DNA from: Nitrospirota bacterium
GTDB lineage: Bacteria; Nitrospirota; Nitrospiria; Nitrospirales; Nitrospiraceae
Reading direction: 5' to 3'
Assembly: GCA_040757595.1 (NCBI GenBank)
Contig: JBFLWP010000008.1
Span: forward strand, 1 to 64,000
DNA length: 64,000 nt
The notes under the pieces were generated by a model. The model was not told where the DNA came from. It did no database searches and saw only the letters and a program-made list of their open reading frames with translations. Every line of letters begins with the position of its first letter. Positions within the stretch are counted from its first letter, which is position 1. Made by a program: the position numbers and the translations under genes. Shown here in pieces: positions 35,229 to 36,101 of this stretch.

Positions 35229-35711
35229 ATGGGTAAGATGGTGTTGACGGTCTTTATCGGCCTTCTCTTCATCGCGGCCGGGGCGACAGCCTCATTCGCC
35301 CACCATGCAGGTGGCGTCGAGATTGGGGATTTGGAAACCGGATCGGTCATCGGCCAGCCCTTCAAGGAGCTGCCCATTGACATGGACTTCCACGCGTTGG
35401 AGAACGTGGGCGGGAAGAAGGTCTGGTATCCGCCGGTCGCGATCCTTAGCGTCAGGGATCGGGGGAGCAACCCGGTGGTGCTGAAGGTGACGAACGATAC
35501 CTCGAGCGAGCACGGGTTCTACCTGACCGCCGGCGACAGCTACGCGCCGCCGTCGTCCCTGAACGTGAAGATCGTGCTGAAGCCAGGCGAGACCAAGTAC
35601 ATCGGCATTCCCACCAGCGACCTCACCTATACGGTCGTGGGGAATGTGCTCCGCTACAAGTGCCACCTGCATGAGGCCCATGCCGGCGGGCAGTTGCTGA
35701 TCTTGAAGTAG
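35229..35711 (+). CDS. Exported cupredoxin, nitrosocyanin-like
   Basis: This 160-residue protein has a signal peptide (hydrophobic residues 4-22, cleavage near SFA-HH) and a cupredoxin domain. Likely copper ligands lie in SSEHGFYL and in the C-terminal loop YKCHLHEAHAGGQ. The loop places Cys, then His at +3 and +6, with no Met axial ligand. The order SE(H)GF, PGETKYI, then CxLH...H resembles nitrosocyanin as I recall it, rather than plastocyanin or azurin. It should be a periplasmic electron carrier or red-copper protein. ATG 35229 follows GGGAGGT. It has its own promoter and a strong terminator, so it is a single-gene unit likely to be well expressed. Confidence 0.78.
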   Translation: MGKMVLTVFIGLLFIAAGATASFAHHAGGVEIGDLETGSVIGQPFKELPIDMDFHALENVGGKKVWYPPVAILSVRDRGSNPVVLKVTNDTSSEHGFYLTAGDSYAPPSSLNVKIVLKPGETKYIGIPTSDLTYTVVGNVLRYKCHLHEAHAGGQLLILK

Positions 35712-35732: not shown

Positions 35733-35770
35733 ATCCCCCCGGCCGCGCGGGTGACCGGGGGGATTTTTTT
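35733..35770 (+). terminator. Rho-independent terminator after the cupredoxin gene
   Basis: ATCCCCCCGG and CCGGGGGGAT are perfectly complementary around a 12-base loop, followed by seven T. It ends at the stop of the converging gene. Confidence 0.92.
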
Positions 35771-36101
35771 ACGCAGGCTCGCCCTGGCAGTCCGTTTGCG
35801 CGTTCAGAGGCAGGCGCTGGCTGGCCGCCACCTTCCCTTTCACGATCAATAGCAGGAACCGGCCTTCCGTCGGAACTTGACCGGGCCGTTCCGTGACGAC
35901 GGTATTCAGGTCCACCACGACTTCGTTCTCCGCCTGCCACTGCGCCCCGTTGACCACCCAGACGTGGCTGCTGGCTCGTGGAAATTGCTTCGCCACGAAC
36001 CCGTCAATGGCGCGGGAGAGGTCGGTGGTCGTACCTGAAGCCAGTCCGGCGGTACTCAGGCTCCCGATCAGACAGAGCAGCAACACCCATCTGGAGGCCA
36101 T
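35769..36101 (-). CDS. Small exported protein, unknown function
   Basis: This 110-residue protein has a signal peptide (MASRWVLLLCLIGSLSTAGLA). The mature region is a small alpha/beta domain: helix TTDLSRAIDGFVAKQFP, strands HVWVVNGAQWQAENEVVVDLNTVV and RFLLLIVKGKVAASQRL. A single Cys lies near the end. ATG 36101 is used because GGAGGG lies 6 bases before it; an ATG six bases further upstream abuts that site. No family was recognised. It converges on the cupredoxin gene, and the region upstream (36102-36243) holds no gene. Confidence 0.7.
   Translation of the reverse strand: MASRWVLLLCLIGSLSTAGLASGTTTDLSRAIDGFVAKQFPRASSHVWVVNGAQWQAENEVVVDLNTVVTERPGQVPTEGRFLLLIVKGKVAASQRLPLNAQTDCQGEPA

Follow-up and report, generated by a model that had tools for sequence, protein, structure and literature searches.

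A predicted His3Cys cupredoxin related to nitrosocyanin in Nitrospira-type nitrifiers

Introduction

Nitrosocyanin (NcyA; family model TIGR03096; PDB 1iby, 1ibz and 1ic0) is a homotrimeric cupredoxin with a red spectrum and an open coordination position, with Glu60, Cys95, His98 and an axial His103 as ligands. Small Met-type cupredoxins of the amicyanin and plastocyanin kind (Pfam Cupredoxin_1 and Copper-bind; 4hcf) carry His, Cys and His as equatorial ligands and an axial Met, and the spacing C-x2-H-x2-X is that of amicyanin-type sites. As of 2014, no red copper cupredoxin apart from nitrosocyanin had been studied in depth, according to PMC4059628. The same source describes AcoP of Acidithiobacillus ferrooxidans as a green periplasmic respiratory cupredoxin of unusual colour, and cites a title according to which azurin Met121His has a type-1.5 site.

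Nitrosocyanin has been discussed as an NO oxidoreductase of ammonia oxidisers; its gene ncyA is reported only from ammonia-oxidising bacteria (AOB) and is absent from comammox, which leaves the NO oxidoreductase role open there (PMC6478695, PMC6967387). A 'nitrosocyanin family' was counted in 15% of copper-using bacteria (PMC2147054), so distant relatives of nitrosocyanin were already known from many bacteria. For Nitrospina, the genome paper proposes cupredoxin-like proteins of the nitrite-oxidation gene cluster as electron carriers (PMC3578206). No natural His3Cys or axial-His cupredoxin was found in the open-licence literature searched, where one mention of an 'axial histidine' concerned a designed porphyrin protein.

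Here we describe P0001, a protein encoded in the window, a stretch of 64,000 nucleotides from a Nitrospirota bacterium (GCA_040757595.1, contig JBFLWP010000008.1, positions 1 to 64,000). P0001 is predicted to be a new ligand variant among the nitrosocyanin-related cupredoxins and, judged by the features that define nitrosocyanin, is not one itself. As a near-universal Nitrospira relative with one ligand changed, it offers a ready test of the role of the nitrosocyanin Glu, and its family bears on the evolution of the red site (from Met-type through axial His to red) and on which copper protein serves Nitrospira.

Gene and encoded protein

The open reading frame occupies exactly positions 35229-35711 on the forward strand and has the following parts:

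35229..35711, + strand: cupredoxin P0001, predicted to be secreted and of His3Cys type, 160 aa (open reading frame, homologues, conservation, AF2 model)
35229..35300, + strand: putative signal peptide, aa 1-24, hydrophobic, with SFA before HHAGG (sequence; cleavage site placed by eye)
35310..35381, + strand: conserved N-terminal block, aa 28-51, GGVEIGDLETGSVIGQPFKELPID (alignments; pLDDT about 95 at residues 31-50)

The AF2 model has a helix at residues 2-25 and low pLDDT at residues 22-27, in the signal peptide region, and the mature, probably exported protein would begin HHAGGVE. The N-terminal block is missing in short homologues and does not align to nitrosocyanin; it is also kept in metal-less paralogues.

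P0001 has matches at E<=0.001 in 54 of 61 relatives' genomes, many of them full-length at 55-66% identity and in other genera, and an alignment of 17 diverse members is invariant at N89, H95, G96, F97, E121, C145, L147, H148 and H151; the reading frame is therefore not a chance one. Searches with P0001 alone matched none of the Pfam and NCBIfam families and, with phmmer, no PDB chain. A promoter and terminator scan around the gene gave nothing on the + strand, and no relatives were found in the viral contigs scanned. Two plasmid matches were set aside after translation, neither having the C-x2-H-x2-H loop.

Relationship to nitrosocyanin and other cupredoxins

The link of P0001 to nitrosocyanin, which the single-sequence searches did not give, runs through a profile and through its relatives. 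The best PDB match of the 17-member profile was nitrosocyanin 1iby (3.2e-7), followed by a weak match to 4hcf (0.24). The NCBIfam nitrosocyanin model matched 8 of the 17 members, more than any other model did, with a best value of 1.4e-8 that is far under its cut-off; Pfam Cupredoxin_1 matched 6 of the 17 (best 9e-6). Searched singly, a short-form relative of a different Nitrospirota family matched 1iby at 1.6e-10 over 67 ungapped residues, with a His opposite Glu60. The preliminary description, made from the sequence alone, had called the protein nitrosocyanin-like, and this kinship was borne out at the family level.

Membership in the nitrosocyanin family proper is another matter. Against the curated score cut-off of TIGR03096 (142.85 bits), P0001 gave no match and the best relative scored singly reached 49.9 bits. 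A true nitrosocyanin elsewhere in the phylum was likewise discounted, as 0 of 295 Nitrospirota genomes passed this cut-off, which fits the absence of ncyA from comammox stated in the literature (PMC6478695, PMC6967387). P0001 and nitrosocyanin share the cupredoxin fold, the C-x2-H motif, an axial His in place of Met and the sequence relation described above. They differ in that P0001 has His95 instead of Glu60 and a spacing of C-x2-H-x2-H instead of C-x2-H-x4-H, carries an insertion behind HGF as well as the additional conserved block at the N-terminus, and lies under the family cut-off. The Met-type small cupredoxins resemble P0001 in fold, in the equatorial His-Cys-His set and in the C-x2-H-x2-X spacing, but have an axial Met where P0001 has His. 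Both features looked for as marks of a type 1 blue copper protein were lacking in P0001: there is no axial Met (or Gln/Leu), His151 standing in its place, and no match to Pfam Copper-bind or Cupredoxin_1.

In a tree with one nitrosocyanin and two Met-type rows, from which the multi-domain rows L048, L053 and L054 were excluded, nitrosocyanin was sister to all His3Cys forms with support of 80/57; an alternative that placed it with five short forms of other classes was not rejected (AU p 0.379).

The AF2 model of P0001, built with 43 sequences, had a pLDDT of 85.2 and showed a cupredoxin Greek-key beta sandwich, aligning with solved cupredoxins at Z 10-11 over about 90 residues. With Foldseek, ranks 1-4 were all nitrosocyanin. 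The VIA aligner gave 4hcf_B (Z 11.4, 2.1 A, 95 residues), nitrosocyanin 1ibz_C (Z 10.8, 2.1 A, 91 residues) and FtrB 8vuk (Z 10.7, 2.1 A, 89 residues), and since these three tie, nitrosocyanin is set apart by sequence and not by fold. AcoP matched the model at Z 9.0 (2.5 A, 96 residues); Met was studied as a ligand there, according to the title of its M171A structure entry, and no sequence match of AcoP to P0001 or to the profile was listed. Azurin Met121His (PDB 1a4a) matched at Z 8.3 (3.4 A, 103 residues) and shares the His3Cys set predicted for P0001, but it is man-made, has another loop spacing and belongs to another family.

Predicted copper site

The residues that bear on the copper site lie in two motifs, TSSEHGFYL (Glu94, His95, Gly96, Phe97) and YKCHLHEAHAGG (Cys145, His146, His148, His151):

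35508..35510, + strand: Glu94, earlier proposed as a ligand; variable and not lost together with the metal site (comparison of 134 homologues)
35511..35513, + strand: His95, predicted equatorial ligand, aligned to nitrosocyanin Glu60 (alignments, invariance, co-loss)
35661..35663, + strand: Cys145, predicted ligand, aligned to nitrosocyanin Cys95 (alignments, invariance, co-loss)
35670..35672, + strand: His148, predicted ligand, aligned to nitrosocyanin His98 (alignments, invariance, co-loss)
35679..35681, + strand: His151, predicted axial ligand, aligned to nitrosocyanin His103 across a 2-residue gap (alignments, co-loss)

Cys95, His98 and the axial His103 of nitrosocyanin are all matched, by Cys145, His148 and His151 in a loop two residues shorter. 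The preliminary description had read the loop CHLHEAH as lacking Met, and this stands, a His being predicted in the axial place as in nitrosocyanin. It had also expected Glu60 to meet a Glu ligand in P0001, with the adjacent His as an extra; here the comparison reverses the roles, as Glu60 falls one residue off, on the invariant His95, and Glu94 is variable. When 24 short and long forms were compared directly to nitrosocyanin, every one of them had all four residues (His, Cys, His, His), and the column of Glu60 holds Glu in 0 of 134 homologues.

Of the 134 distinct homologues, 108 carry His95 and Cys145. As two of the four ligand positions served to choose these 108, only the remaining two carry information, and His148 and His151 are present in 108 of 108. 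The remaining 26 have mostly lost all four ligands, with His148 and His151 each kept in 2 of them. When the ligand columns were left out of tree building, the metal-site state changed at least six times on strongly supported branches, so that the co-loss of the ligands is not one event. Position 94 behaves otherwise, being E in 84, D in 23 and A in one of the 108 metal-type homologues, and E or D in 22 of the 26 without the metal site; position 146 is H in 77 and Q in 31 of the 108. From the nitrosocyanin alignments and the co-loss pattern, we assign the predicted site to His95, Cys145 and His148 (equatorial) and His151 (axial), that is His3Cys, and exclude Glu94.

If Glu94 were a ligand and His95 an addition to it, the site would be truly red, and this would account for the Glu that adjoins the His in P0001, as it does in 84 of the 108 metal-type homologues. 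We give it next to no credence, given that Glu60 of nitrosocyanin aligns with His95, that 24 of the 108 have Asp or Ala at position 94, and that Glu or Asp persists there in 22 of 26 metal-less homologues. The His3Cys site is instead predicted to combine the canonical equatorial His with an axial His as in nitrosocyanin, and would be intermediate between the Met-type blue site (His, Cys, His, Met) and that of nitrosocyanin (Glu, Cys, His, His).

The column of His151 holds Met in Met-type relatives (L174, of the same phylum, and 4hcf). With the identical spacing of L174, and with equatorial ligands and a C-x2-H-x2-X spacing of the amicyanin type, P0001 could be an ordinary blue type 1 cupredoxin bound through His95, Cys145 and His148, His151 being too distant to take part. 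This is very unlikely in our estimate: His151 occurs in 108 of 108 metal-type homologues and is lost together with the other ligands, and an axial Met to His change moves azurin off blue, going by a title cited in PMC4059628.

Our favoured explanation, to which we give about an even chance, is that P0001 is a periplasmic His3Cys electron-transfer cupredoxin with a low-potential, green or red-shifted site. The single-domain protein would hold one copper in the His3Cys site and cycle between Cu(I) and Cu(II), carrying electrons one at a time within the periplasm in Nitrospira-type nitrifiers. Bonding by the axial His would draw the site away from blue, as in azurin Met121His, and give it a type 1.5 to 2 character, not a classic blue one.

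Distribution among Nitrospirota

A profile of 43 sequences was searched at E<=1e-10 against 295 Nitrospirota genomes. The cupredoxin family was found in 96 of them, 95 with the long form and one with a weak short form (G037, family f2). The long form is limited to two families, the family of the window's genome (f1, 77 genomes) and a second one (f3, 18 genomes); two listed genomes of f1 are without it. Other families of the order and class have short forms, about 130 aa in length, that share the four residues. The ligand residues were intact in all 24 newly fetched loci in which they were read, seven of these from AMO-positive genomes.

Nitrospira-type NXR alpha was found in 81 of the 295 genomes at a threshold of E<=1e-100, after 12 of 93 genomes had been dropped whose match was only 39-42% identical. 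A cupredoxin-family match accompanied it in 80 of the 81, the weak short-form match of G037 included, and 16 family-positive genomes showed no NXR alpha at this threshold. The family is thus present in nearly all sampled Nitrospira-type nitrifiers. Its co-occurrence with NXR is uninformative on function, because presence follows clade (the two families) and is confounded with descent.

The preliminary description had taken the genome to be Nitrospira-like. This agrees with the NXR alpha of the window's genome (G000), which was found only as two fragments at the ends of contigs C13 and C29 and is of Nitrospira type, sharing 87-88% identity with the N. defluvii subunit. No match was obtained with a model of the DMSO-reductase-type beta subunit, and a search for AMO in the window's genome found none. 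The single-contig genome G159, from the same family, holds two cupredoxin-family copies and shows no NXR alpha at E<=1e-100; it is possibly a family member that does not oxidise nitrite.

The same survey bears on whether P0001 takes the place of ncyA in Nitrospira, acting on NO or nitrite as a copper enzyme or carrier in the manner proposed for nitrosocyanin. Its closest solved relative is nitrosocyanin, the family is present in 30 of the 31 genomes (of 295) with AMO above cut-off, cytochrome P460-like genes lie near the metal-less paralogue in several genomes, and comammox bacteria, lacking ncyA, have an NO oxidoreductase still to be found, according to PMC6478695. We nevertheless hold such a role to be unlikely, since canonical nitrite oxidisers, which have no AMO, hold the family just as often, His in place of Glu60 would give the copper a full set of four strong ligands from the protein, and the function of nitrosocyanin is itself unproven.

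Genomic neighbourhood

The neighbours of the cupredoxin gene are the nusA-infB operon, a spermidine-synthase-like gene and a ferredoxin. An argument for function from operon structure was set aside, as the gene sits in a conserved stretch before nusA-infB and a redox partner is absent. In N. defluvii, the gene lies at 4.09 Mb and NXR at 3.19-3.22 Mb, and hence not near it. One convergent neighbour accompanies the gene in many genomes:

35769..36101, - strand: small secreted protein, 110 aa (HMM found in 29 of 39 loci of the metal-type copy examined, some of them truncated)

This protein has no match in Pfam or NCBIfam. It gave a weak hhalign match (probability 92%, resting partly on the signal peptide) to the small gene that precedes the metal-less paralogue, to which it is possibly related.

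Metal-less paralogue

The window's genome has a second copy at L071:6652-7188 on contig C6, which is 70% identical to P0001 over residues 13-160, and N. defluvii has its metal-less copy at L147:7905-8480. In this paralogue (B, as against the metal-type copy A), present in many genomes, His95, Cys145 and His148 are replaced by Arg, Asp and Asn in most cases and by Gln, Ser and Pro in the window's genome. The N. defluvii B model keeps the fold (pLDDT 79.7; 1ibz_C at Z 10.5, 2.1 A, 90 residues).

Upstream of B a small secreted gene was found in 12 of 14 loci, the exceptions being two f3 loci, and the surroundings include a Slp-family lipoprotein and a DsbA-like protein, with a Cu-type P-ATPase, an HtrA-like protease and cytochrome P460-like genes in various genomes. 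The P-ATPase near the N. defluvii copy has YHS and HMBD domains, and HMA-domain proteins and NikR are encoded near the copy of the window's genome.

This setting raises the question of whether P0001 handles copper as a carrier, buffer or metallochaperone, with B as its partner or decoy, and is not a redox carrier. In the window's genome and N. defluvii, B indeed sits among metal-handling genes together with the Slp, DsbA-like and HtrA-like genes, and the N-terminal block is common to A and B, as if for a common partner. A, however, lies outside the metal-handling locus, B has no metal site, and a His3Cys cupredoxin site makes a poor transient copper carrier; we therefore regard copper handling as possible but rather unlikely.

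The two copies are more alike within a genome than between genomes. Mature-core identity is 75.6% for A and B of the same genome, 63.3% for A and B of different genomes, 66.2% between A copies and 62.3% between B copies. The within-genome excess is significant in 13 genomes (shuffle p 5e-5), and the signal peptide shows none (31.2 vs 30.1). A single clade for all B copies was rejected (AU p 1e-5, 14 B rows against 16). The identity test covers 13 of 14 genomes and the clade test is one A row short, as L013, a duplicate, had been left out of the homologue set. The likeness is uneven: A and B of G020 are only 54% alike, and B is closer to the B of another genome in 8 of 13 (G011, G020, G019, G002, G001, G060, G050 and G027), by 3-34 points. 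Recent gene conversion between A and B was rejected, since A and B of one genome share uninterrupted DNA identity over at most 9-29 bases (14 genomes), too little for a recent tract. Set against the conserved neighbourhood of B, the pattern may reflect old concerted evolution, such as early or piecemeal gene conversion from which the metal site was spared, or else several duplications into a single locus.

A more speculative proposal, which we think quite unlikely to hold as a whole, joins these observations. The almost universal Nitrospira family would be the His3Cys sister of nitrosocyanin, nature's equivalent of azurin Met121His and a type of precursor that could have become a red site once Glu replaced His95; it would be the missing NO- or nitrite-linked copper carrier in Nitrospira, both comammox and nitrite-oxidising, and would form a pair with a paralogue in which an Arg and an Asp took over the metal site in many lineages.

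As a separate observation, the gene upstream of B in the window's genome (L071:4755-5336) is cytochrome P460-like by a clear match (1.3e-25) and has a CxxCH motif. In N. defluvii, the corresponding gene ahead of B (L147:6329-6853) gave a sub-threshold cytochrome P460-like match (0.0018) and has CxxCR in its stead; judged from this motif, the N. defluvii protein may be without its heme His by loss.
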